From NCBI RefSeq assembly GCF_000296465.1, contig NZ_JH815203.1, positions 1,037,453 to 1,101,452 of the forward strand: a stretch of 64,000 nucleotides of DNA, in the 5' to 3' direction. How positions within the stretch are numbered: the stretch's first letter is position 1; every line of letters begins with the position of its first letter. Of this stretch, positions 49,362-63,782 are shown in pieces. The DNA comes from Barnesiella intestinihominis YIT 11860 (GTDB lineage Bacteria > Bacteroidota > Bacteroidia > Bacteroidales > Barnesiellaceae). Both the position numbers and the translations under genes were made by a program. The notes beneath the pieces were generated by a model. It was not told the origin of the DNA. It made no database searches and saw only the letters and a list, made by a program, of their open reading frames with translations.

Positions 49362-50723
49362 CTATGCGAACAGAGCTATCACCTCATCGATGGTAAACAG
49401 GGACTGTTCGCCCGTAGTCATATTTTTCAAAGTGATTTTTTCTGCTGCAATTTCATTTTCACCGACCAAAGCGACATACTCCACGCCTGTGGAATCGGCA
49501 TATCCCATCTGCTTCTTCATCTTAGCGGCTTCGGGATAAATTTCGGCCCGTATACCGGCAGCTCTTAACCGGGCTAAATGAGACAGACAAACCTCGCATT
49601 CCCGCTCTCCGAAATTAACGAACAGAACTTGTGTCGATTCCATCGACTCCTTCGGGTATAAATCGAGTTGATTGAGTACATCGAAAATACGATCGGCCCC
49701 GAAAGAAATACCGACACCGGAAACTCCCGTCAAGCCGAACACTCCCGTCAAATTATCATAACGGCCTCCCCCTGTAATGCTTCCAATTTGCACATCGAGA
49801 GCCTTTACTTCGAGAATAGCTCCCGTATAATAATTCAGTCCGCGAGCCAAAGTCAAATCGATTTCAAGCGATGCTCGCAGAGACGAAGCGGATAGTTTTC
49901 GTAAAATATATTCCAACTCGTCTATACCTTTCAATCCCACTTCCGAGGCAGATAATTCTCTACGCAGCACTTGTAACTTTTCTTCGTTGCTTCCCTGCAA
50001 CAGAATCACTGGTTGCAATCGGGCGATGGCATCTTCGGACAAACCCTTTTCCCGTAATTCGTCATTCACCTTATCCAATCCTATCTTATCGAGCTTATCG
50101 ATAGCGACCGTAATATCGACTATCTTATCGGGAGCACCTATCCACTCGGCTATCCCGCTCAATATCTTCCGATTGTTCAATTTAATAGCGACCCGTATTC
50201 CGAAACGGGCGAAAACCTCGTCTATCATTTGAATGAGTTCCACCTCGTTCAATAATGAATCGGAACCTACGACATCGGCATCGCATTGGTAAAATTCACG
50301 ATAGCGTCCCTTTTGCGGACGGTCGGCTCGCCACACGGGCTGTATCTGATAACGTTTGAATGGAAACGTCAGTTCATTACGGTGCATCACGACGAAACGG
50401 GCGAAAGGAACCGTCAAATCATATCGTAACCCTTTCTCACATAACCGGCAAGACAAGCGGTTGAGATTACGCTCCTCTAAATCGGTCTCGGTAACATCGG
50501 AAAGAAAGTCTCCCGAATTAAGGACTTTAAACAAAAGTTTATCCCCCTCTTCTCCATACTTTCCCATCAAGATCTGTAAAGTCTCCATCGCCGGAGTCTC
50601 GATTTGACGGAATCCATAAAGGCCGAAAACATGCTTTATCGTATTGAATATATAATTACGCTTCGCCATCTCTTCCACAGAGAAATCTCGCGTACCCTTC
50701 GGGATACAAGGTTTTGCCATCAT
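49362..50723 (-). CDS. hisS: histidyl-tRNA synthetase
   Basis: The 453-residue class II synthetase has [11 protein letters not shown] at the N-terminus, [11 protein letters not shown]-like motif 1 ([13 protein letters not shown]), motif 2 [20 protein letters not shown] with [10 protein letters not shown], the His-A motif [10 protein letters not shown], and motif 3 region [10 protein letters not shown] and [11 protein letters not shown]. The anticodon-binding domain follows ([13 protein letters not shown]). Two ATGs in tandem begin the gene (50723 and 50720). A consensus promoter lies 60 to 90 bp upstream. Length is slightly above the usual 420-430. Confidence 0.97.
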
Positions 50724-51139: not shown

Positions 51140-54100
51140 CTAAAAACGATAAGCTGTTCCTAATGAAATGCGGCCGACTCCGATGAAATGATGTGTATTG
51201 GGTATGTAGTCATATAACTTATCGTCCCACAACGTCATCGAGGGTTCCGCAAAAAGATCGAACGAACGGGAAACATTCCACCGGAATTGCAAACCTCCCT
51301 CGACCACCCAACCGATACCTCCATCACTGTTATAATTACTCCACCCTATACCGGTTCCCAACGAGGCTATCAGATGGAAACGACGATCGGGATCGGGTTC
51401 AAGAAGCGATGTAAGATTCAACAGATAATCGACATGAGCCGTCCCCAAGCAAAGAGTTTTCGACGTATGGGGTGCAATAAAATCATATCCCAAGCCTATT
51501 TCCATACCCGATGCCGATGTAAACCATCTACCGAAAGAAAGGTCTGCCCCTACCGAAACTTTCCGATAACGGTCCACCAAAATCGTTTCACTGAACAACG
51601 ACGGACCTACCGAAACGGAAAAATAATTTCTCTTATCGAAAGTTCGTTTTCCTCCCGCAACTGTATTCCCGCCCAATTTATAATTGAGGCCAACCATCAA
51701 ACGAGCCTCCGGGTCGAAGCCCAAGCCATTGTCATTACGAGAAACACGAGATGCAAGAAGCTGAGGCTCGATAAACAAATCGATGCCCGAAGATACATTG
51801 AACCGTCCTTGTACTCCTGCTCTGACGCCATAAACAAATTCATTTTTCTTTTGGCTATTTCCGACTCCGGCATACACTCCGCCTAACGCAATGAGGTCAA
51901 ACAACCTGTCGGAATTATATCCGACCGTAAAAGCCGACAGATTAAACATATAGTCGGCCGACAAAGCCAGCGACATATAACGTGGCGCCGCACCGTAATA
52001 TCCATAATCCAAGCCCAACCGCCAAGCCGACAAAGGAGTGTACCACTTGCCGACAGAAACAGCCAATCCATGACCTCCCGCAAAATCATCGCCAGACCGT
52101 CTCAATACCCGTCCCGTATAGGCCAATGACAAGAAATATTTATCGGACAAGTCATAAGCGGCATGATTGGCCTTATAGTCATATCGATCGAGCTGATATT
52201 GCAGACCGACATTTAGAGAAGTCAACATGTCGACAGGCAAACCGGCGAAGCTCTCACGAGAATATTTTTTCCCGAAAGCCCTCACTTGGGGTTCGACAAA
52301 CAATCCGATACCCGAACCTACATTCCACAATCCTTGCAAACTCAAACCCATACCGGGATAAAATCCCGAATTATAGCTGGTCGCATAGGATAGTACGGCT
52401 CCAACACCCAATGTCGCATGGAATATCCGAGAAGGATTATACCCATACAACGTCGAATTGATATTCCACAAATAATCGAGTTGTACAAGACCGAACTTGC
52501 GATAACCGGGTTGGGAATCGCCATACGCGCCTCCGCCTGCCGTCAAACGCACGCCCGACGCGGCCGTAAACCATTTGCCCAAATAAAGAGAAGCCATCGG
52601 CCCGATTCGATCCAAAGGATTAGTGCGCAACCCCTTATGCAGAATACCTGCTGCTCCTATATTTAAACCGTAAAACATGTGGTCGACAAAATTCTCGTTA
52701 CGAAATTCTACGGTTTTCTCAAATGATCCGTGTTTCATTCCGTAAGCATAAAGATTGTAGGAAAGCCCCGCCGTAACAGTCGGCACGACATCGACCGAAG
52801 AGAACAAGTTTCGTTCCCAACGGTTATTTTGACTCACATTCAATCGAGGCTCGACAAATAAATCGAACATATCGTTGAGACGGAATGTCCCCTGCAAGCC
52901 TATACCCGCTCCGAATCCATGTTGGAAATAACCCTCGGAAGAGACATAGTCGTAATTAAACCCGGCAACCCCATTCAAATTAAAAAACCGATTGCTATCA
53001 TACCCATAAAAAAGCGTGGAAAAATTCAACAAGTAATCGAGTTGGCCACCGACAGCCAATGTCCTGTATGGAGAGAACTCGGTATCGAGAGACGAATAAT
53101 TTAACAATAAGCGAGCTCCCGAAACAGGATTCCACCACGTACCTATACCGCCGAAAATACGGAAACCCTTATTGGGCAAAGGATTGGAAAGCGAAAATTT
53201 CATCGCCCCTGCAAATCCGGCTCCCATCGTTAAATAAAGATCTCCTATACGACGAGGAAAATCAAAAGCATCCTCTTCCCTCGCCGACCGATTGAACGAC
53301 GGCGATACAGGACGATATGTAAATCCGGCCAAAACAGCCGGTAGCGGATCGACAGCACTCAACCCGTCTTTCCAAGATTCGTTCGAAAACACATCGACAC
53401 GAGGTTCCACAAATACAGCCCAATGATCCGATAGGCGAAACTCTCCGTGCAAACCTGTCCCCGCGCTCCACCGAGTATGCAATTTATCGTCTACGGCTAC
53501 CGAATGAAAACCCGCACCCAATACCCCCGACATCTCGAACAACCGGCTCGGATCATATCCACCGAACAAAGCATGGAGATTAAACAGATAATCGAGTTGC
53601 AAGCCGAAAGAAGACTTATTATACAATTCGTCGGTCTTCAAATAACGCATCAATCCAGATAATCTCAAAGAAGAAACAGAAGTAAATTGATTTCCAATCG
53701 ACAGCATAGCCGTAGCCCCGGGATCAAGAAGGAGCCCAGAACCACTCGTCAATGTAGTCGCCATACCGCCTCCCGCAGAAACGAAAAAACCTTGATCGGC
53801 TCCGAAAAAAGGAGCTTTACGACGCACCGGATCCGATAGTAAACGATAACCTAAGCCGGCCATCAACGAAGCCTCCCAGTCGTAACGCATCCAAGTCTTT
53901 ATCCCGTCTATTCCGTCGGAATAAATTCCAATACGGGGTTCAAGATAGAAAAAGGTCAACGGAGAAAAATTAAACCTTGTCTGCATACCCAATCGAAATC
54001 CGCCGGCATGCGACCAATTGCCGGTACGATATAGTAACTGATATTCACCACCGGCGACACCGATTAACTCGAACATTCGAACGGGATTATCTTTATGCAG

Positions 54101-54514
54101 CAAAGAAGTAATATTCATCAAATAATCGGCAGACAAACCGACAAAATAGGGATTCACCCCTGCGAGCCCGTTATGTAACCCCGCATTTAACCCCACACGC
54201 ATACCGTGCACCGGAGAAAACCAATCGCCTACCGTCAATCCTGCACGAAGCCCCAAACCGGGAGTAGCGAACAAAGAACCGGCCGAACGATCGAGAATCA
54301 GGCCTGCCTCCCCTGAAATAAAAAGATGGTCGCCAAATTTCTTTTTAGCATACCTTTCATTTTTGGCGGGCTTTTGCAAGGTATAATCCAACCCATTAAA
54401 CTGATTATTCTCCGGTTGTTCCTGCGCAGCCGCACTAATCGTAAAAACGACGATTAAAAATAGCGGCAGTCGAACCACCGAAGTAAAACCGCGCATAATA
54501 TATCTCATTTTCAT
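51140..54514 (-). CDS. six-repeat outer-membrane beta-barrel protein
   Basis: The 1124-residue protein has a signal peptide (about 1-30, ending ISAAA) and then six tandem repeats of about 174 to 187 residues. The repeat marker DYLxN or DYMxN appears at residues 130, 308, 493, 680, 854 and 1029, each followed by a YDPxRxF-like loop. A second marker FVEP or FxEP appears at 192, 370, 555, 741, 916 and 1090. Each unit alternates short amphipathic strands and turns as in an 8-stranded OmpA/DUF3575-like barrel. The chain ends in the outer-membrane signature AYRF. It is the last gene of a three-gene operon, 3 bp after the OmpA/TPR protein gene. I know no named family for the full length. Confidence 0.8.
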   Translation of the reverse strand: MKMRYIMRGFTSVVRLPLFLIVVFTISAAAQEQPENNQFNGLDYTLQKPAKNERYAKKKFGDHLFISGEAGLILDRSAGSLFATPGLGLRAGLTVGDWFSPVHGMRVGLNAGLHNGLAGVNPYFVGLSADYLMNITSLLHKDNPVRMFELIGVAGGEYQLLYRTGNWSHAGGFRLGMQTRFNFSPLTFFYLEPRIGIYSDGIDGIKTWMRYDWEASLMAGLGYRLLSDPVRRKAPFFGADQGFFVSAGGGMATTLTSGSGLLLDPGATAMLSIGNQFTSVSSLRLSGLMRYLKTDELYNKSSFGLQLDYLFNLHALFGGYDPSRLFEMSGVLGAGFHSVAVDDKLHTRWSAGTGLHGEFRLSDHWAVFVEPRVDVFSNESWKDGLSAVDPLPAVLAGFTYRPVSPSFNRSAREEDAFDFPRRIGDLYLTMGAGFAGAMKFSLSNPLPNKGFRIFGGIGTWWNPVSGARLLLNYSSLDTEFSPYRTLAVGGQLDYLLNFSTLFYGYDSNRFFNLNGVAGFNYDYVSSEGYFQHGFGAGIGLQGTFRLNDMFDLFVEPRLNVSQNNRWERNLFSSVDVVPTVTAGLSYNLYAYGMKHGSFEKTVEFRNENFVDHMFYGLNIGAAGILHKGLRTNPLDRIGPMASLYLGKWFTAASGVRLTAGGGAYGDSQPGYRKFGLVQLDYLWNINSTLYGYNPSRIFHATLGVGAVLSYATSYNSGFYPGMGLSLQGLWNVGSGIGLFVEPQVRAFGKKYSRESFAGLPVDMLTSLNVGLQYQLDRYDYKANHAAYDLSDKYFLSLAYTGRVLRRSGDDFAGGHGLAVSVGKWYTPLSAWRLGLDYGYYGAAPRYMSLALSADYMFNLSAFTVGYNSDRLFDLIALGGVYAGVGNSQKKNEFVYGVRAGVQGRFNVSSGIDLFIEPQLLASRVSRNDNGLGFDPEARLMVGLNYKLGGNTVAGGKRTFDKRNYFSVSVGPSLFSETILVDRYRKVSVGADLSFGRWFTSASGMEIGLGYDFIAPHTSKTLCLGTAHVDYLLNLTSLLEPDPDRRFHLIASLGTGIGWSNYNSDGGIGWVVEGGLQFRWNVSRSFDLFAEPSMTLWDDKLYDYIPNTHHFIGVGRISLGTAYRF

Positions 54515-54517
54515 ACT

Positions 54518-56545
54518 TTAATCTTCCTGTTGTAACAAATCCAATACATCGCCATCGACACTGGCGACATCTCGTAACGACGGATCCTTCTTGAACGCAC
54601 TCTCCAAATAGGACAAAGCGAGAACCACCTCGTCGACACGATTAGCCGCCACGGCCTTGATATACTCCTCTTTGGCCGAATTTCCGAGCAGCTTCGCTTT
54701 TTCCCATGCTTGTTCGTTCGACTTGATAGCCAAAAGCATAAGCACTTCGTTAAAAGGCGATTCCGCCGATATTTCCTGCATCACCTCGTTGTAACGGCCA
54801 TTCAGCGCGGCGGCATAGACTTTCGCTTTATGATAAATACCTGTATCCGGTAAATCGAATGCCAAAGAGTCGGCTTGGGCATAACGCCCGGCAGACAACC
54901 AAGCGACCACTTGGTTCAATCTTGTTTCATCGGGCAATTCCGGCATTTCGAGATAAGGTAAAAGCAGCTCTGAATCCGGCACTCCCTTATCAATAAGAAT
55001 AGCTGCCAAATCGGTAGCCGCAACCAAAAATTTGGGATAGACCTCCAATGCCCGGCGGCATATCGCCTCACGCTCGGCAATCGAATCGGCGAGATTGTAC
55101 AGCCGCCAAAATTCATTACGAGACAAAGATGCACTATCGCTACGATAGAGCGCTTCGATTTCTTCGTCTGTGAGATAACGGTATTGCGAAAATAACAGCT
55201 CATAACTTACTCGACGCAACCGAGGCAAATACCGGGAAGTTATCAAAGGGCGATAAAAAGGCAACGATACGACATTTCTCGACTGCCGGTTCGGATTATC
55301 GGGATATTTATCGATTATTTCCTGTATAGCATCGGCCTCTCGGATTTTGTTATCCGCCCGAAGCAAATCGACCACCCGGTCCCAAGTCTCGACCGATGCT
55401 GTCGTATGCATATCTATTTGCCTCCGGGTAGACTCGTTCAACTCTTTAACGATGAGCGACATTGCCGATGCCATACGTTTCTGCGCCAACTGTTTGTTTC
55501 TCTCATAGTTCCCCTCCGGCGATGCCGTTCCTGCAATAGAAAAACTTTTTAACCGAGCATTCGGATCGTTCTCTACCTGATGCAATCGGGAAATAAGCCG
55601 ATTCAATTCCTCTCGGTTATCCCCATCGGTGAGATTCAAATCGCTCTTGTTCACTCTGAATGTAAGATTCACATCGCCCTTCGTATCCCGCAGTTGCATC
55701 TCTGGCTGCGGGAAAAAATTTTCGTTCTTTACCGCACTACCGGGAATCTCGTATTCGAGGAAACGCAACGGGTTCACAACACCCCGGGCAATAACAAACG
55801 TATCGCGATAGAGCACCCGATTGTAATTTTCCATCGAGACCATCATATCGCAACGGAAATCGTCATTTACATTTTCTACATAGGTCGAGTCACTATACCC
55901 GACCAAATCGTCCTTGCGGGAAGAAGAACTTTTCACTTGAACATATCGCGACAAAGGGTCTTGACCCGAATCATAATCGTACATACGTTCCTGAGTAATG
56001 GCATACTCTTTCCCATCGAAAACCAAAGGTTCGAGAAAAATCATCTGTTCCCGAGTGACATTGTAAACACCCGGTTGTATAATCATACGGGCATTCGTAG
56101 AAAAAAGCTCTTTGGGAATTTTCACACGAGTGCGGATATGAAAATAATTTCCTTTCACTTCAATATCGGTGGGTTCGGGAACCACATTGTCGGTAATTCT
56201 CTTGGCAGAAACAACTACTTCTTCGAGAGCCACTGCCGAATGACGAAGCACGACATCGACCGTCAATTCCCCACGGACGGCAGCTTTACATTCTTCATAT
56301 CCCAACGATGTAAACAATAACTCTCCTTCCGAATCGATTTTCACCAAATATTTTCCATCTTCATTCGTCGAGCCGATAAGTTTATTGGTTCCGGCATTAT
56401 AGATACTCACCCGAAATAGCGGTTCCCCCTCGATATTGGTCACCGTTCCCCGTACATTTATATCACGCGCAGACAAAGGCAAAGCGCAAACGACACTCAA
56501 AATAAGCCCTATGAACAAGGAACAAAATTTATTGAGATTCAACAT
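54518..56545 (-). CDS. CarboxypepD-reg / OmpA-like / TPR envelope protein
   Basis: The 675-residue protein has a signal peptide (about 1-26, LSVVCALPLSA). A CarboxypepD_reg domain follows (NVRGTVTNIEGEPLFRVSIY to VVLRHSAVALEEVVVSA). The middle beta region, about 120-290, contains REQMIFLEPLVFDGKEYA, as in DUF3868-type proteins near fimbrial genes. An OmpA-like block follows (KSFSIAGTASPEGNYERNKQ), and the C-terminal 230 residues are helical TPR-like (AEREAICRRALEVYPKFLVA). The OmpA block suggests peptidoglycan contact. It is the middle gene between the DUF3575 and hexa-barrel genes and may anchor the barrel protein; this is inference. Confidence 0.78.
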   Translation of the reverse strand: MLNLNKFCSLFIGLILSVVCALPLSARDINVRGTVTNIEGEPLFRVSIYNAGTNKLIGSTNEDGKYLVKIDSEGELLFTSLGYEECKAAVRGELTVDVVLRHSAVALEEVVVSAKRITDNVVPEPTDIEVKGNYFHIRTRVKIPKELFSTNARMIIQPGVYNVTREQMIFLEPLVFDGKEYAITQERMYDYDSGQDPLSRYVQVKSSSSRKDDLVGYSDSTYVENVNDDFRCDMMVSMENYNRVLYRDTFVIARGVVNPLRFLEYEIPGSAVKNENFFPQPEMQLRDTKGDVNLTFRVNKSDLNLTDGDNREELNRLISRLHQVENDPNARLKSFSIAGTASPEGNYERNKQLAQKRMASAMSLIVKELNESTRRQIDMHTTASVETWDRVVDLLRADNKIREADAIQEIIDKYPDNPNRQSRNVVSLPFYRPLITSRYLPRLRRVSYELLFSQYRYLTDEEIEALYRSDSASLSRNEFWRLYNLADSIAEREAICRRALEVYPKFLVAATDLAAILIDKGVPDSELLLPYLEMPELPDETRLNQVVAWLSAGRYAQADSLAFDLPDTGIYHKAKVYAAALNGRYNEVMQEISAESPFNEVLMLLAIKSNEQAWEKAKLLGNSAKEEYIKAVAANRVDEVVLALSYLESAFKKDPSLRDVASVDGDVLDLLQQED

Positions 56546-56564
56546 AACAATCTATCAATTAAAA

Positions 56565-57113
56565 TCACTTAAATATATAAGAGAAAGATAGTCCCAGCCG
56601 AATAGGGACAGGCGACCATTTGGAAAGATTGGGTGTTGCCGGTTTTTCCTCTCCTTCCCGATAATCGAAAGCCCGTAACTTCGCCATACCGATACCCAAC
56701 GTAGCTTCCATATTCCAATGACGACTAAGGACAAAAGCGTAGCCATAAGTAAGACCGGCGGCCCAAATATCGCCCTCATAAAGATGTTCTTTAAATTTCA
56801 CATTATAAAGTCCACCCAACAAACTTATTCCCATGAAATGCCGAGCCATAGGCCTATTAAACCAATACCGCAACTCCGGCTGAAAACGGAAATGCGTGGC
56901 TTTCATATCGGCAATCGTAAACGAAAACGGATTAGCCGCAGCACTTATATCGAGAGTCAATCTTTGATTCAACCTCATTTCTACCGCCAAATTAGGCGAT
57001 AATGTAGCCCAATCGATGAGATTACTTTTAAGAGCGACACGTTGTGCATTGACCATTTGAATATTCAGGATCACTCCCAAAATAATAAAGCATTTATTAA
57101 AAACCTTTTTCAT
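56565..57113 (-). CDS. DUF3575 small outer-membrane barrel protein
   Basis: The 182-residue protein has a signal peptide (MKKVFNKCFIILGVILNIQM, cleavage near VNAQ) and the DUF3575 pattern: ALKSNLIDWATLSPNLAVEM, FRFQPELRYWFNRPMARHFM, GISLLGGLYNV and LSRHWNMEATLGIGM. The final LGLSFSYIFK has the alternation of a last barrel strand. DUF3575 genes in Bacteroides often lie near fimbrillin and DUF3868 genes. It begins the operon continued by the OmpA/TPR and hexa-barrel genes. It looks like one unit of the barrel that is repeated six times downstream. Confidence 0.83.
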   Translation of the reverse strand: MKKVFNKCFIILGVILNIQMVNAQRVALKSNLIDWATLSPNLAVEMRLNQRLTLDISAAANPFSFTIADMKATHFRFQPELRYWFNRPMARHFMGISLLGGLYNVKFKEHLYEGDIWAAGLTYGYAFVLSRHWNMEATLGIGMAKLRAFDYREGEEKPATPNLSKWSPVPIRLGLSFSYIFK

Positions 57114-57280
57114 ACTTATTAACTAACCGGAAGCCGATCCCCCTTTTCAAAAAGCTTCACTCGAAGTTTTAAAACCGTTTCTTACCCAAGTATTAAATAA
57201 CTCTCAAAAAACGGAACAAAAATATATAATTCATTCATATATGCAAAATAAGCTTATATTTTTATCCCTCATTTATATGA

Positions 57281-57314
57281 AAAAAGGCTATTATTCACAT
57301 GAATAACAGCCTTT
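57281..57314 (-). terminator. terminator of the YugP-type protease gene
   Basis: On the - strand AAAGGCTGTTATTC pairs with GAATAATAGCCTTTTT; stem about 13 bp with one mismatch and a T-run. Confidence 0.8.
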
Positions 57315-57344
57315 ATTTTTTAATATTATAGAAACAATACTCTC

Positions 57345-58025
57345 TTAACTGTCCCGTCGCCCTCCTGCAAAAATAATAATGTAGTACACCAATGTCGCTA
57401 ACGACCCCAACGCTGCCACTACATAAGTATATGCAGCCCATTTCAATGCGTCTTTGGCCTTGTCGTGAGTACTCGCATCGGTCACCCCGGCTCCGTTCAA
57501 CCAAGCCAACGCCCTTTGACTGGCATTAATTTCCACCGGCAGAGTAATAAAACTAAACAAAGTCGTCGCAGCAAATAAAATTATACCCAATAGCATAATA
57601 GCCGGATAAGCCTGTATCGTGAGAATCCCTATCAATAAAATCCATTGTACCCAATTTGAAGCGAAGCTCACGAACGGCACAAGAGCCGAGCGCAAATTCA
57701 GGAAAGAATAAGAACGGGCATGTTGTACAGCATGTCCACATTCATGCGCAGCCACGGCAGCCGCTGCGACACTGTTGCCGTAGTAAACATCACGGCTGAG
57801 GTTTACCGTATGTGTGGCCGGATTATAATGATCGGTCAAATGCCCATCGACCTGCGTTACAGAAACATCGTTTATTCCATTCTCCTGCAACATACGCATG
57901 GCAATATCCCGTCCTGTAAGGCCATAAGGAATGGGAATTTTAGAATAACGTTCGAATTTACTTTGCAATGTACGTTGTACCGCAAAGCTAACTAATGCAA
58001 TGACTATAAATAATACGTAAACCAT
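57345..58025 (-). CDS. YugP/COG2738-type membrane zinc metallopeptidase
   Basis: The 226-residue membrane protein has an N-terminal helix (VYVLFIVIALVSFAVQ), the segment TGRDIAMRMLQENGIN, DHYNPATHTVNLSRDVYYGN and the zinc motif AAHECGHAVQHA in which the HExxH-like HECGH carries the catalytic glutamate. Three further helices follow (near 115-160 and 185-220). The family is widespread in bacteria; the substrate is unknown and membrane-protein quality control is a guess. It is a single gene divergent from the activase operon. Confidence 0.9.
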   Translation of the reverse strand: MVYVLFIVIALVSFAVQRTLQSKFERYSKIPIPYGLTGRDIAMRMLQENGINDVSVTQVDGHLTDHYNPATHTVNLSRDVYYGNSVAAAAVAAHECGHAVQHARSYSFLNLRSALVPFVSFASNWVQWILLIGILTIQAYPAIMLLGIILFAATTLFSFITLPVEINASQRALAWLNGAGVTDASTHDKAKDALKWAAYTYVVAALGSLATLVYYIIIFAGGRRDS

Positions 58026-58225
58026 AATCTTCTTTTTTTAATATCAAATTCACAGATTGCGCAAATATATAGGAAATAAGGGAATAGATGTGTTAATGCA
58101 AAAGTTATTATAACAAAAGAGTGTTAAACAAGGAATATCAGAACAAAAACTCCGAGATAAAGAAAAGACTCGAATCCGGAAAACATAAAAAAGTTTAATA
58201 AATTATCTCTTTCAAAATTTATTTA

Positions 58226-58254
58226 TACATTTGCGTCTGACAATACAGTCAGAC
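58226..58254 (+). promoter_or_regulatory. promoter with palindromic TetR-operator candidate
   Basis: TACATTTG (58226-58233) is a -7 box. One base further is GTCTGAC-AATACA-GTCAGAC (58235-58254), a perfect 7-bp inverted repeat with 6-bp spacer over the expected transcription start. The TetR-family gene in the same operon is the obvious candidate ligand. Confidence 0.65.
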
Positions 58255-58296
58255 ATATAAGACAAACTATATAGTTAAACTTAATTTATCATTCAC

Positions 58297-61200
58297 ATGC
58301 AAGGGGAAAAACAGTACAAAACAGGACTCGATGTAGGCTCTACAACAGCCAAAATAGTCATTATCGATGAATCCGGGCAAACCGTTTTCTCTCGTTATGA
58401 AAGACATAACGCCCAAGTGAACGATCTTCTTTCCGCCTATTTTCGGGAAGCCCGTCAAGAACTGGGCAACATCGAAACCTCTATCGCAGTTACCGGCTCG
58501 GTAGGCATGGGAACAGCAGAACAGCTACGAACCGAATTTATACAAGAGGTCGTAGCCGCCACCCGGTACGCCCAGCAACTATATCCATCTGCTTCGGCTT
58601 TGATCGACATCGGCGGAGAAGATGCCAAAGTCGTTCTCTTTCAAGGGAACCATATCGACCTTCGCATGAACGGGAATTGTGCCGGTGGTACAGGTGCGTT
58701 TATCGACCAAATGGCCGTACTGTTGGGAGTAGACATCGAAGAACTGAGCCGATTGGCTTTGCAAGCAGAGCATATACACCCGATAGCTGCCCGCTGCGGA
58801 GTCTTCTCCAAAACCGACATTCAAAATCTAGTCAGCAGGAACGTCCCGTTGGGCGACATCGCCGCCTCCATTTTCCATGCCGTTGCAGTACAAACCATCG
58901 TAACATTATCGCGAGGCTGGACATTCCACCCGCCTATTCTGTTATGCGGTGGTCCCTTGACCTTCATTCCGGCCTTACGAAAAGCATTCGCCGATTATCT
59001 GCATTTGCAAGAGAGCGACTTTATTCTTCCTGCCAGCGGGAACCTTCTTCCCGCATTAGGCTGTGCCCTATGTGCCACGGAAGAAAAAGCAGTTTCTTTA
59101 TCGACATTGGAAAATCTCATATCCCGAAGCACCAATATCACAACAAAAAACAGCCTACCTCCGCTATTCGATTCCGAAACGGATTATGACAACTGGAAGA
59201 AAGAAAAAGCACATTATAACTGGCCCTCTGCCCCTCTTGTTCAAGGGATACAAGAAGCCGTACTGGGAATCGACTCAGGATCGACTACCACAAAAATAGT
59301 CGTGACAACCCCCGACGGCGCTATCCTTTTCTCGCACTACGCCCCCAATTTGGGGAATCCGATAGAAGCCGTTCGAAAAGGATTGACCGAATTAAAAACG
59401 CAATGCGATAAAAACGGGACGGTATTAAACATAACAGGCTCCTGTTCGACCGGATATGGAGAAGAATTGATAAAAGCGGCTTTCGGCCTCGACGGAAGCA
59501 TGATAGAAACTATGGCCCATTACCGGGCCGCCCGACAAATGGCTCCCGATGTCTCTTTCATTCTCGACATCGGCGGACAAGACATGAAGGCTATTTTCGT
59601 CAAACAAGGAGCTATCACTCGCATGGAACTGAACGAAGCCTGCTCGTCGGGATGCGGTTCATTCATCGAAACCTTCGCCCGCACATTGAAATACAACGTG
59701 TCCGATTTTGCCCGTTCCGCCTGTATGGCTTTGCACCCTTGCGACTTGGGCACACGCTGCACCGTCTTTATGAATTCAAAAATTAAACAGGTTTTGCGGG
59801 AAGGAGCGACAGTAGCAGATATAGCCGCAGGGTTGTCCTATTCGGTCGTAAAAAACTGTTTGTACAAAGTCTTGAAGTTAAAGGACGGCAAAGAGTTAGG
59901 AGGAACGATTGTCGTTCAAGGAGGAACGATGCATAACGATGCGATCGTCCGTGCATTCGAATTGGAAACCGGTAAAAAAGTCGTACGAAGTAATTTACCC
60001 GAATTGATGGGAGCATACGGTTGCGCTCTACTGGCCGCTTCTCAAAAATCGAATTCGCGCACGATAAACCAACAGCTCGAAACTACCGGATATACCAGCC
60101 GACAAATTCAATGCAACGGCTGTGAAAACAAATGTTTCGTATGCCGCTATACCTTCCCCAACGGTAATACGTTCTTCTCGGGAAACAAATGCGAACGAAT
60201 TTTCACCAATCGGGGGGAAAGCGAAAAACCCGGACAGAACATATATACCGACAAATATGCTTTGTTGTTCGACCGGGAAACTTCGGAAACAGGCAACAGA
60301 ACCATAGGTATACCCCGTGTCCTTAACATGTACGAGAACTATCCCTTTTGGCATGCTCTCTTTACTCGCTGCGGTATTCGGGTCGTACTGTCCGATATTT
60401 CAACTTTCGTCAGTTATGAGAAAGCTCTCAACTCGGTCATGTCGGACAACATCTGTTTCCCGGCCAAATTAGTGCACAGCCACATTCAAAACCTGATTCA
60501 CAAGAAGGTGGAACGCATCTTCCTGCCATACGTTGTCTACGAGCACGAAAGCGACAAGAAAATGAACAACAGCTACAACTGCCCCATCGTCACCGGGTAC
60601 TCCGATGTCATACGCAGTTCCATGTCGCCGGACATTCCGGTAGACTCTCCGGCCATCACTTTTGCCGACACCGGCTTACTCACCAAACAATGCACGAATT
60701 ACCTAAGTTCTTGGGGCATATCGAAAAGAGATGCCGAGCAGGCTGTGAAATATGCGTTGAACGCCCAAAAACAATATTCGTCAGACATACGCCAAAAAGC
60801 CGAAAACATTGTCAGGGAAAGCCGCAGAAAAGAAGAACCGGTTATCTTGCTTGCCGGACGCCCTTATCACACCGACCCGCTCATACAGCATAAACTTTCC
60901 GAAATGATAGCCAATCTGGGAGTAAACGTCATCTCGGACGACATAGTTAGAGACAACTCCGAGATAGAGACCCAAGACATTTATCTCATCAAACAATGGG
61001 CCTATATGAACCGAATCCTGAAAGCCGCAGAATGGACAGCCCGGCAAGGGAACGATATTCAATTCGTACAAATGACCTCTTTCGGCTGCGGACCCGACGC
61101 CTTTCTTCTCGACGAAGTAAGAGATATTCTACATCGTAACGGGAAACCCTTCACGCTTCTAAAAATAGACGATGTAAATAACATAGGTTCTCTGAAACTA

Positions 61201-62493
61201 AGAGTGCGTTCTTTGGTCGAAAGCCTGAAACAAACGCCGCTACGCGGAACGACAGAGAAATTCCGTACAACAGAAGTCTTTCGCAAAAAAGATCGAAACC
61301 GAAAAATCATAGCCCCTTTTATGTCGGAATACATCACACCTCTGTTAAAGCCGATTTTCAAATTGTCGGGGTACGACATAGAGGTATTGCCACCGAGCGA
61401 TGCCTCCTCGGCCGAAACCGGTTTGAAGTACGCCAACAACGAGGTTTGCTATCCGGCCACACTCATTGTGGGCGATATTATCAACGCTTTGGAATCGGGG
61501 AAATACGATCTCGACAACACGGCCGTAGCCATTACTCAAACCGGAGGACAATGCCGTGCGACCAATTACTTGGCTCTTATTAAACGAGCCATGCTCGATG
61601 CCGGATTCGGAAATGTTCCCGTAGTCACGTTGGGATTAGGGCGAAAAGTTTCCAACGAACAAGAAGGCTTCGAACTGAAATGGCAAAAGATATTGCCCGT
61701 CGCACTCAATGCCCTGCTCTACACCGATACGCTTTCTAAATTTTATCATGCCTCGGTAGTCCGGGAAAAAGAACGGGGAGCCGCGGCCCGATTGAGAGAC
61801 AAATATTTAAACCTCGCCGAGCGTCCCATTCTCGAAAACGAGCCTCACAAGTTAGTGGAATATATCCACCTTGCAGCCCGAGAATTCAACGATATCTGTA
61901 TGGACAAAACCTGTCCCAAAATCGGTGTAGTGGGAGAAATATTCCTAAAATTCAATTCCTATGCTCATCAACACGTCGTACGCTTCTTGTGCGAACAAGG
62001 TATAGAGGTGGCCCCTCCCATTTTATTGCCGTTCTTTATGCAAGGATTCGTGAACCGCGAGAACAAGGAAAAACTACTCTTAGAAAAGAAACGTATACCT
62101 CATTTCCTATCCGACTTATTCTACCGATACATCGACAAACGGATAGCCCTGTTTAACAGAACGGCATCCACATTCCGGTATTTCACCCCCTTTACCGACA
62201 TCTATGAAGAAGCGGAAGAGACGAAAAATATTGTCTCGGGTGCAGCTCAATTCGGCGAAGGCTGGCTACTACCGGCCGAAATCATAGCGTTCACCAAACA
62301 GGGTATAAACAACGTCATATCGTTACAACCGTTCGGCTGCATCGCCAACCACATCGTATCGAAAGGGATAGAAAAGAAGCTGCGTATGCTGTATCCTGAA
62401 TTAAATTTATTATCTTTGGATTTTGACAGTGGGGTGAGCAGCGTAAACGTAACGAACCGATTATTACTTTTCACACACAATTTAAGTGCCTAA
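58297..62493 (+). CDS. large acyl-CoA dehydratase activase-related protein
   Basis: The 1398-residue cytoplasmic protein has two BadF/BadG ATPase domains. The first has GLDVGSTTAKIVIIDESG near 6 and NGNCAGGTGAFIDQMAVLLG. The second has GIDSGSTTTKIVVTTPDG near 325 and NEACSSGCGSFIETFARTL. The cysteines in these loops hold a [4Fe-4S] cluster in HgdC-type activators. After that come DUF2229 with CNGCENKCFVCRYTFPNG near 608 and an HgdB-like part (GIPRVLNMYENYPFWHALF, VILLAGRPYHTDP, GGQCRATNYLALIKRA). It resembles ATP-driven reductases of 2-hydroxyacyl-CoA dehydratases fused with a dehydratase-like part. No separate dehydratase genes are nearby. Substrate unknown; link to fatty-acid or envelope metabolism is inference. 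Confidence 0.88.
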   Translation: MQGEKQYKTGLDVGSTTAKIVIIDESGQTVFSRYERHNAQVNDLLSAYFREARQELGNIETSIAVTGSVGMGTAEQLRTEFIQEVVAATRYAQQLYPSASALIDIGGEDAKVVLFQGNHIDLRMNGNCAGGTGAFIDQMAVLLGVDIEELSRLALQAEHIHPIAARCGVFSKTDIQNLVSRNVPLGDIAASIFHAVAVQTIVTLSRGWTFHPPILLCGGPLTFIPALRKAFADYLHLQESDFILPASGNLLPALGCALCATEEKAVSLSTLENLISRSTNITTKNSLPPLFDSETDYDNWKKEKAHYNWPSAPLVQGIQEAVLGIDSGSTTTKIVVTTPDGAILFSHYAPNLGNPIEAVRKGLTELKTQCDKNGTVLNITGSCSTGYGEELIKAAFGLDGSMIETMAHYRAARQMAPDVSFILDIGGQDMKAIFVKQGAITRMELNEACSSGCGSFIETFARTLKYNVSDFARSACMALHPCDLGTRCTVFMNSKIKQVLREGATVADIAAGLSYSVVKNCLYKVLKLKDGKELGGTIVVQGGTMHNDAIVRAFELETGKKVVRSNLPELMGAYGCALLAASQKSNSRTINQQLETTGYTSRQIQCNGCENKCFVCRYTFPNGNTFFSGNKCERIFTNRGESEKPGQNIYTDKYALLFDRETSETGNRTIGIPRVLNMYENYPFWHALFTRCGIRVVLSDISTFVSYEKALNSVMSDNICFPAKLVHSHIQNLIHKKVERIFLPYVVYEHESDKKMNNSYNCPIVTGYSDVIRSSMSPDIPVDSPAITFADTGLLTKQCTNYLSSWGISKRDAEQAVKYALNAQKQYSSDIRQKAENIVRESRRKEEPVILLAGRPYHTDPLIQHKLSEMIANLGVNVISDDIVRDNSEIETQDIYLIKQWAYMNRILKAAEWTARQGNDIQFVQMTSFGCGPDAFLLDEVRDILHRNGKPFTLLKIDDVNNIGSLKLRVRSLVESLKQTPLRGTTEKFRTTEVFRKKDRNRKIIAPFMSEYITPLLKPIFKLSGYDIEVLPPSDASSAETGLKYANNEVCYPATLIVGDIINALESGKYDLDNTAVAITQTGGQCRATNYLALIKRAMLDAGFGNVPVVTLGLGRKVSNEQEGFELKWQKILPVALNALLYTDTLSKFYHASVVREKERGAAARLRDKYLNLAERPILENEPHKLVEYIHLAAREFNDICMDKTCPKIGVVGEIFLKFNSYAHQHVVRFLCEQGIEVAPPILLPFFMQGFVNRENKEKLLLEKKRIPHFLSDLFYRYIDKRIALFNRTASTFRYFTPFTDIYEEAEETKNIVSGAAQFGEGWLLPAEIIAFTKQGINNVISLQPFGCIANHIVSKGIEKKLRMLYPELNLLSLDFDSGVSSVNVTNRLLLFTHNLSA

Positions 62494-62505
62494 AAACAAA
62501 CGACT

Positions 62506-63150
62506 ATGAATTCAACTTCAACCATCGCTCACCAGAAGACAGAGCAAACCGAAAATATAGAATCGCGTATTATCGAGGCGGCAAAGCAAGAATTTATAAA
62601 AAAAGGATTCGAGCAAACATCGATGAGCGATATTGCAGCGGTCGTAGGGATCAACCGTCCCACCCTACATTATTATTTCAGGACAAAAGATAAAATGTTT
62701 CAAGCAGTTTTCGCCTCGATCGTTGCAAAATTTTTACCTCATATCGATACTATTTTTTCGACTCAGCAATCGTTCTCTGAAAAATTAGAAGATGTTATCG
62801 ACGTCTATGTATCCATTTTCTCGACAAATCCTTTGCTCCCCAAATTCATCATAGGCGAAATTCAACGCGACGCCAACCATTTAATAGAAACTTTTTATAG
62901 TTTAAACCTCGATCAATATTTGAAACACATCGGAGAATTTCTTGAAAAAGAAATGGAAAGCGGAAACTTTAAGAAAGTACCCCTCCCCTTTATATTCATG
63001 ACACTTTACAGCCAACTGGCTTTCCCTTTCCTCAGTAAGAACCTTACCATGAAACTCTTTTTCAATGAAGACAAAGATACATTCAATGCCTTTCTACAAG
63101 AATGGAAACAACACATTATCTCGCAAATCACCTATCTTTTGAAACCGTAA
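62506..63150 (+). CDS. TetR/AcrR-family regulator
   Basis: The 214-residue regulator has a TetR helix-turn-helix (SRIIEAAKQEFIKKGFEQTS, MSDIAAVVGINRPTLHYYFR) and a variable C-terminal ligand domain. It starts 12 bp after the activase stop and should be on the same transcript. A 20-bp palindrome at 58235-58254 in the promoter of the pair suggests autoregulation together with the activase. Ligand unknown; an acyl-CoA would fit the partner but is inference. Confidence 0.92.
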   Translation: MNSTSTIAHQKTEQTENIESRIIEAAKQEFIKKGFEQTSMSDIAAVVGINRPTLHYYFRTKDKMFQAVFASIVAKFLPHIDTIFSTQQSFSEKLEDVIDVYVSIFSTNPLLPKFIIGEIQRDANHLIETFYSLNLDQYLKHIGEFLEKEMESGNFKKVPLPFIFMTLYSQLAFPFLSKNLTMKLFFNEDKDTFNAFLQEWKQHIISQITYLLKP

Positions 63151-63161
63151 AAGACAAAACG

Positions 63162-63196
63162 AAAGGGGGTGTCATAATGAATGATGCACCCTCTTT
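63162..63196 (+). terminator. terminator after the TetR gene
   Basis: A hairpin with arms AAAGGGGGTGTCAT and ATGATGCACCCTCTTT (one G-T pair, one bulge), 11 bp after the TetR stop, T-rich on the right. Confidence 0.6.
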
Positions 63197-63206
63197 GTAC
63201 ATAAAA

Positions 63207-63237
63207 AAAGAAGGGGCGCATTGTGGCGTCCCTTCTT
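63207..63237 (-). terminator. terminator of the ferritin gene
   Basis: Arms AAAGAAGGGGCGCA and TGGCGTCCCTTCTTT with a short loop; on the - strand it ends in a T-run before the convergent TetR terminator. Confidence 0.72.
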
Positions 63238-63257
63238 TCGTATAATACAAAACCAAG

Positions 63258-63782
63258 CTATTCGGCCGATGTAGCCAACGGGGCAGGAGTCGTATAAACA
63301 CGAGCTTTCAACTCTTTGTCGAGCATATACAACCCGAAACCGTTATCTTTAATCATTTTCAGGCTATCAATTAATTCCTGAGCATTAGCCTCTTCTTCAA
63401 TTTGCTCGTCGACAAACCATTTCAGCATATTGGCAGTACCGAAATCTTTTTCCTCATCGGCAAGTACACAAAGGTCATGAATCAGGGCGGTTACTTTTCT
63501 CTCATGAGCCAACGTATCTTCAAAAGCTTCGAGAGGCGATTTCCATTCGGTCTTCACACCGGCAATAGGAGCCAACGTTACTTTACCACCACACGAGAGC
63601 ACATATTTCATAAATATAGTAGCATGAGCTTGTTCCTCTTGGAACTGTATAGAAAACCAATTAGCAAAACCCTGATTCCCAGCCGCTGCAAAATGGTTGG
63701 ACATCGAAAGATATAAATAAGCCGACCAAAACTCGGCATTCACTTGGGCATTAAGAGCCTCTTCCATTTTCTTGCTAAGCAT
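63258..63782 (-). CDS. ftnA: ferritin (FtnA-type)
   Basis: The 174-residue non-haem ferritin has the four-helix signature AQVNAEFWSAYLYLSMSNHF, the ferroxidase centre residues in FQEEQAHATIFMKYV, and AHERKVTALIHDL and VDEQIEEEANAQEL further on. It stores iron in a 24-subunit shell in the cytoplasm and protects anaerobes during oxygen exposure. It is a single gene with its own promoter candidate and a terminator. Bacterioferritin is excluded because no haem-ligand methionine region is seen. Confidence 0.95.
   Translation of the reverse strand: MLSKKMEEALNAQVNAEFWSAYLYLSMSNHFAAAGNQGFANWFSIQFQEEQAHATIFMKYVLSCGGKVTLAPIAGVKTEWKSPLEAFEDTLAHERKVTALIHDLCVLADEEKDFGTANMLKWFVDEQIEEEANAQELIDSLKMIKDNGFGLYMLDKELKARVYTTPAPLATSAE

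Follow-up and report, generated by a model that had tools for sequence, protein, structure and literature searches.

A predicted six-barrel outer-membrane protein and its conserved partner genes in Barnesiella intestinihominis

The stretch of Barnesiella intestinihominis YIT 11860 analysed here (the window; 64,000 nucleotides, contig NZ_JH815203.1, positions 1,037,453 to 1,101,452 of the forward strand) carries at 51140-54514, on the reverse strand, an open reading frame (ORF) with an ATG start that encodes a protein of 1124 residues with six complete repeats. We refer to it as the multibarrel protein, since structure prediction and homology make it very probable that the repeats are six separate, complete 8-stranded barrels of the OmpA type on one chain. 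As the best explanation of the whole, to which we give a probability of about 0.6, we propose that the protein forms a six-barrel array in the outer membrane, held in place by a partner protein and offering a multivalent binding surface.

Repeats and predicted barrels of the chain

The features of the gene, all on the reverse strand, are as follows (HMM, hidden Markov model).

51140..54514, reverse strand: multibarrel protein, 1124 residues, six predicted OmpA-like 8-stranded barrel repeats (translation, HMM, AlphaFold2 models)
54425..54514, reverse strand: probable signal peptide, residues 1-30 (hydrophobic stretch by eye; helix 2-29 in the model)
54371..54403, reverse strand: N-terminal motif QFNGLDYTLQK, residues 38-48, ahead of barrel 1 (conservation among homologues)
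53834..54340, reverse strand: barrel repeat 1, about residues 59-227 (HMM boundaries; strands 64-224 in the model)
53303..53797, reverse strand: barrel repeat 2, about residues 240-404 (HMM boundaries, model strands)
52745..53242, reverse strand: barrel repeat 3, about residues 425-590, sister of repeat 2 (HMM, tree, model)
52184..52690, reverse strand: barrel repeat 4, about residues 609-777 (HMM, whole-chain and pair models)
51668..52150, reverse strand: barrel repeat 5, about residues 789-949 (HMM, whole-chain and pair models)
51143..51640, reverse strand: barrel repeat 6, residues 959-1124, with terminal F (HMM, model, C-terminal motif count)

The six-fold repeat proposed in the initial annotation was borne out exactly. 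Anchors of the form DY[LM]xN lie at residues 130, 308, 493, 680, 854 and 1029 (spacings of 178, 185, 187, 174 and 175), which are the positions given at the outset for DYLxN, although the fifth copy reads DYMFN; of a second motif, FxEP, the first copy reads YLEP, and the numbers originally attached to it are those of its E. The repeats were cut at the anchors and compared with one another by BLASTP (database of the six repeats, composition correction off): each of the 15 pairs aligned, with identities of 25-39% and E-values from 4e-28 (best) to about 9e-7 (weakest). By phmmer, repeat 2 scores 150 bits against residues 405 onwards of the chain (repeats 3-6), versus a best of 10.5 bits in the shuffle control, where 1506 of 2000 shuffled chains returned any score. 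The repeat region, as bounded by the HMM, extends from residue 59 to the last residue of the chain. We conclude that the repeat is real and old. A profile of the six repeats finds no other match among window ORFs of at least 100 residues (reporting limit E 10, HMMER filters on). Full-length orthologues are present in 8 of the 9 Barnesiella genomes searched, its own included, with 70-77% identity in the other seven; hence, the gene is no assembly artefact. The closest named records are likewise mostly from Barnesiella. Ahead of the first barrel, most residues of QFNGLDYTLQK are invariant in 12 homologues with five and six copies, and L46 and Q47 are invariant in 24 sequences.

For the whole chain, AlphaFold2 (24 full-length sequences) predicts eight strands in each repeat, in keeping with the initial proposal that one repeat has the size of one 8-stranded barrel, and low-confidence linkers in between. 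A Foldseek search with this model returned 773 matches, the best 50 of which show strand-by-strand likeness only (root-mean-square deviation of about 20-44 Å), and for this reason an adjacent pair was modelled. The model of repeats 4 and 5, built from 86 adjacent pairs, is confident (predicted local distance difference test, pLDDT, 90.9; predicted template-modelling score, pTM, 0.70) and has 8 + 8 strands, with a linker confidence of about 72. Its best superposition is on a predicted phage outer-membrane protein of 190 residues (template-modelling score, TM, 0.74 by target length; 3.3 Å over 178 columns), while OmpA-like proteins superpose at 3.8-4.5 Å over 169-172 columns and the model of E. 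coli OmpA at 6.8 Å over 200 columns. In contrast, the larger porins among the 50 matches listed (OmpG, OmpF, FadL and similar) give 17-25 Å and TM 0.15-0.29. OmpA has 8 strands, and the larger porins have 14-18. Given that the pair model superposes on proteins the size of one repeat and not on the larger porins, separate barrels are favoured over a single 48-strand barrel, and the same superposition scores suggest that each barrel closes within its own repeat. The prediction of 6 x 8 strands and the pair superposition would thus place more than one complete barrel on the chain.

The relation to OmpA is also apparent by sequence. The OmpA of the same genome (G000:C2:806740, 395 residues), which consists of one barrel and an OmpA domain (PF00691, E 4.5e-15), matches the repeat profile with E 1.1e-29; together with the OmpA-like superpositions, this identifies the predicted barrels as OmpA-type. 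The multibarrel protein gives no match to the C-terminal (peptidoglycan-binding) domain of OmpA at E up to 1, and its last repeat reaches the C-terminus. Other assignments were considered and set aside: PorT/SprT of the type IX secretion system (16.5 bits against an NCBIfam cut-off of 125), hints of DUF481 and DUF2715 that stay below their cut-offs, and a relation of the repeats to DUF3575, which is not claimed (profile comparison probability 4.9%).

Conservation was mapped onto this topology with 85 of 137 repeats (alignment A3). All eight strands show hydrophobic alternation; loops L1-L4, after strands 1, 3, 5 and 7, are variable (0.42-0.80 bits), in contrast to the conserved turns T1-T3 (1.69-2.29 bits), which follow strands 2, 4 and 6. 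Since both ends of the OmpA barrel are periplasmic, the variable loops would face outside. Linkers between profile ends measure 8-23 residues, with a median of 14 (n=163 complete junctions, duplicates included, from repeats complete at their ends and with L057, L058, L060 and L061 omitted), and those of the window 12, 20, 18, 11 and 9; at such lengths neighbouring barrels must sit close.

The last strand differs between internal and terminal barrels. Strand 8 ends in the form G-x-x-aromatic-x-hydrophobic in 26 of the 29 last repeats and in 80 of 107 internal ones; a final F in this motif occurs in 26 of 29 last repeats versus 11 of the 89 internal repeats in which the motif could be parsed. 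Thus, the last strand remains signal-like in the internal barrels, with the classical final residue in the terminal one. The chain ends in LGTAYRF, which does resemble the classical outer-membrane C-terminus recognized initially. The signal-peptide-like N-terminus, the terminal F and the strand pattern are together consistent with a location in the outer membrane.

Copy number, repeat evolution and partner genes

Among the 54 sources examined, 49 contain a multibarrel gene, and collapsing identical sequences leaves 41 distinct proteins, that of the window included. The search for versions with other copy numbers, suggested in the initial annotation, found 2 to 8 repeats in these 41: two repeats in one protein, three in seven, four in ten, five in twelve, six in eight, seven in one and eight in two (the 2-copy, the 7-copy and some 3- and 4-copy counts, and the copy numbers of L058, L060, L061, L119 and L120, depend partly on weak or partial repeat matches; L057 stops at a contig end). 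Named carriers include Coprobacter secundus, Duncaniella muris, Bacteroides finegoldii and Bacteroides luti. Alignment A2 comprised 23 of 30 loci and the window, leaving out L089, L100-L103, L106 and L107; alignment A4 omitted the near-duplicates L079, L083, L093, L094 and L104 and the single-barrel loci L106 and L107.

More broadly, the repeat profile has matches in 118 of 393 genomes of the order (E up to 1e-8); among the matches listed, those outside multibarrel chains mostly fall in frames of about 370-430 residues, the size of single-barrel OmpA. At E up to 1e-15, the full-length profile, run phylum-wide with at most two candidates scored per genome, matches 8 of the 395 genomes. The candidates from outside the order come from two genomes and are frames of 392 and 413 residues, again the size of single-barrel OmpA, which with two candidates per genome is no proof of absence. 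A counterpart at the level of genes occurs in Bacteroidales bacterium CF and a relative, where three tandem separate genes encode one barrel repeat each in 389-439 residues, the size of OmpA (L106:5959-9618 and L107:5812-9473). At L059:3275-9247, a three-barrel gene and the OmpA-like gene are accompanied by two DUF3575-like genes (one weak) and a separate one-barrel gene (205 residues).

A tree of 119 repeats from chosen loci, without repeats of fewer than 110 profile columns, points to inheritance by position. In proteins with 3 to 6 copies, the first repeats form a cluster (20 rows, support 98/70), L059 excepted; those of the 8- and 2-copy proteins fall outside it. In three 4-copy and three 3-copy proteins, repeat 3 clusters with Barnesiella repeat 5 (100/99) and repeat 2 with Barnesiella repeat 4 (99/93), and in two of these six proteins repeat 4 joins Barnesiella repeat 6 (99/90); the pattern is not followed by other 4-copy proteins (L090, L099 and L105). 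Barnesiella repeats 2 and 3 are sisters (99/87), which is, judging by the tree, a duplication within the lineage. Among the 8-copy proteins, repeat 4 pairs with repeat 6 (98/96) and repeat 5 with repeat 7 (100/93), indicating that a two-barrel block was duplicated. Support for the deep forks is low, with 33 of 116 inner branches open, and the tree contains several long branches. The barrels are thus largely specialised by position, and have been gained or lost whole or as two-barrel blocks.

Two genes precede the multibarrel gene on the same strand.

54518..56545, reverse strand: partner 1, 675 residues, CarbopepD_reg_2, OmpA-like domain and TPR-like C-terminal part (Pfam scan)
56565..57113, reverse strand: partner 2, 182 residues, DUF3575 protein (PF12099, E 9.8e-52)

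Partner 1 ends 3 bases ahead of the multibarrel start, and partner 2 lies 19 bases upstream of partner 1. The CarbopepD_reg_2 match of partner 1 (34.2 bits) is above the Pfam cut-off of 32.2, and its TPR_14 match (E 0.56) is below cut-off; no match to DUF3868 was found in it. Relatives of partner 1 give clearer OmpA and TPR matches and, its own being below cut-off, the two names are taken from them. The order DUF3575, CarbopepD/OmpA-like protein, multibarrel protein holds for 37 of the 41 proteins; for the other four, the OmpA-like gene adjoins the multibarrel gene, three of these being on contigs of 4-5 kb and the fourth in Bacteroides luti, where DUF3575 is downstream. The one genus member without a multibarrel gene, G005, has no close homologue of partner 1 (best E 7.6e-15; nothing at 1e-20), its DUF3575 matches are located elsewhere in the genome, and, on a single strand, its matches to the pair of genes bordering the unit in the window are separated by 186 bp. 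The three genes are therefore absent together in G005, and they may have been lost or never gained.

Relatives of the partner pair occur in a different setting in the same genome. At L121:1-10543, a fimbrial locus is headed by a DUF3575 gene and then a DUF3868-OmpA-TPR gene, in the order of the multibarrel partners; behind them come an unassigned gene, an Mfa2 (E 2.3e-36) and a gene of the FimA type (E 3.1e-8). Beside the multibarrel gene, the six other ORFs scanned (54518-63782) have no match to a fimbrial family, fimbrillin or Mfa2-FimB anchor; the scan did not take in 49362-50723, on the other side, which was named histidyl-tRNA synthetase by eye. Further along, a protein of 1398 residues with BcrAD_BadFG and DUF2229 (acyl-CoA dehydratase activase type) is encoded at 58297-62493, with a TetR-type regulator after it; this looks ordinary. 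Outside the window, a DUF3575 gene at L124:6738-7668 (G000:C1, about 1156737-1157668) is seemingly split by inversion: the plus strand carries profile positions 2-142 and the minus strand 143-177, and an OmpA-like gene on the minus strand lies next to it. The 7-base sequence ATACGTT is seen by eye at both break points, although chance matches of equal length are also there, and no convincing inverted repeat was listed at the split gene. This could be a phase-variable fimbrial-type locus in its off state.

The proposed array and its alternatives

According to our proposal, the chain would be exported by Sec, and the beta-barrel assembly machinery (BAM) would insert the barrels one by one. Six small closed barrels, joined by short periplasmic linkers, would then lie side by side in the outer membrane, with four variable outer loops per barrel, about 24 in all, and with the conserved turns directed to the periplasm. 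The CarbopepD/OmpA-like partner may grip the periplasmic faces or turns, keeping the array near the cell wall, while the variable loops would make up a multivalent binding surface for a putative ligand. The array and binding function is a tentative part of the proposal, which we hold at slightly under even odds.

Several observations weigh against this proposal. The whole-chain model is weak (pLDDT 69.9, pTM 0.38) and hence leaves the arrangement of the six barrels undefined. By E-value, the larger porins are the top Foldseek matches of the pair model; nevertheless, we gave superposition more weight, since the local structural alphabet is alike in any strand meander. The multibarrel protein reaches no Pfam or NCBIfam cut-off, and a profile search of PDB sequences listed four matches (best E 0.039), none of which was taken as a relative. 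The strands (1.72-2.07 bits) are nearly as conserved as the turns, and motifs resembling those turns can also be seen by eye in single-barrel OmpA; neither turn conservation nor turn motifs are therefore proof of partner contacts. The C-terminal outer-membrane signal begins with a polar residue, yet such a residue stands at the signal start in 8 of 26 last repeats versus 49 of 80 internal ones. Finally, the OmpA match of partner 1 (17.4 bits) is below the Pfam cut-off of 27.2, and its OmpA-like domain reads S-P-E/D-G, aligned by eye, with Ser where the OmpA of the same genome has the Asp that plays a role in wall binding; the same is true of the partner 1 relatives listed. Hence, the wall tether is uncertain.

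A first alternative is that the chain forms a single giant barrel of about 48 strands in which the linkers serve as normal turns on the periplasmic side. It would agree with the even strand number per repeat, the short linkers and the large barrels that lead by E-value in the best 50 rows. It is nonetheless highly improbable: the confident pair model fits proteins of one-repeat size and not the larger porins listed, each repeat is homologous to a stand-alone OmpA barrel, copy number shifts by whole repeats from 2 to 8 (a few partial or weak), and most internal repeats keep the signal-like strand 8. The repeats could instead be soluble beta-sandwiches, or the protein could be outside the outer membrane, whose assignment is itself by prediction. 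No computation pointed to either outcome, both of which the initial annotation had named as fatal to its view, and eight long alternating strands with outer-membrane barrel matches, the OmpA homology and the terminal F leave this next to no credibility. The separate barrels that the annotation listed among its options are thus favoured by the pair superposition, the OmpA homology, the strand alternation, the N-terminus and the terminal F.

Even with separate barrels, the chain may have another fate or task. A polyprotein, exported and then cut in the periplasm into single barrels, would account for linkers of 8-23 residues with lower model confidence and for the basic residues in some window linkers, but separate single-barrel genes would serve equally, and the confined linker lengths and largely conserved barrel order suggest that joining matters; we regard it as improbable. 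A platform for surface export or assembly, akin to a fimbrial one, would have in its favour that relatives of the partners head the fimbrial locus with Mfa2 and a FimA-type gene in the same genome. However, an 8-stranded barrel has no through-pore, and the ORFs scanned beside the multibarrel gene include no fimbrial family, which makes such a platform unlikely, though worth keeping in view next to the binding array.

Relation to known systems and meaning

In multi-barrel chains, eight-stranded combinations reportedly prevail and are said to arise by lineage-specific amplification. Chains of this kind are not as exceptional as the initial annotation assumed: they were described by Solan, Pereira, Lupas, Kolodny and Ben-Tal (Solan et al. 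2021, PNAS, doi 10.1073/pnas.2104059118, known to us via the papers that cite it, PMC11494523, PMC9603273 and PMC8592465), and the present family alone has many members with 2-8 repeats. The multibarrel protein resembles those proteins in having several complete outer-membrane barrels per chain, as predicted, but here one family spans 2-8 barrels, the order of the barrels is for the most part conserved, and the three-gene unit is fixed. YjbH/GfcD, as presented in passages of the same three papers, has two predicted barrels per chain; its barrels are larger (12 and 12-13 strands), with a middle domain, and are tied to polysaccharide export. According to PMC8592465 (2021), no solved dual-barrel structure was known to its authors.

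Closer at hand, the single-barrel OmpA of Bacteroidales has a barrel domain homologous to each repeat and combines barrel and OmpA domain in one chain, whereas in the multibarrel unit the OmpA-like domain is in the neighbouring gene. In fimbrial loci of the P. gingivalis type, both upstream partners have relatives that stand in the same order; there, anchor and fimbrillin-type genes follow the pair, unlike in the window, where the multibarrel gene follows. In the portions of the literature consulted, DUF3575 appears in expression tables only, and a DUF3868-DUF3575 gene group is among the iron-changed genes of B. thetaiotaomicron. The open-licence literature searched yielded no paper on an operon of DUF3575, OmpA-like and multibarrel genes. 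Multi-barrel chains are thus already known, and what is distinctive here is the unusually clean copy-number series and the fixed partner pair.

It is conceivable, though we consider it rather doubtful, that gut Bacteroidales have here a system dedicated to barrel arrays: a cassette of three genes that are gained and lost together, in which the pair of DUF3575 and OmpA/TPR proteins would have been borrowed from fimbrial loci, and a tunable string of 2-8 individually specialised barrels, in place of the fimbria, would form an ordered patch of outer membrane. The family bears on how the assembly machinery folds several barrels per chain, and on why cells join barrels at all. Its natural series of 2-8 barrels of one type, in named hosts and with a conserved partner pair, makes it possible to change the number of barrels and measure the effect, so that it is well suited to studying how such chains are built in bacteria and for what reason.

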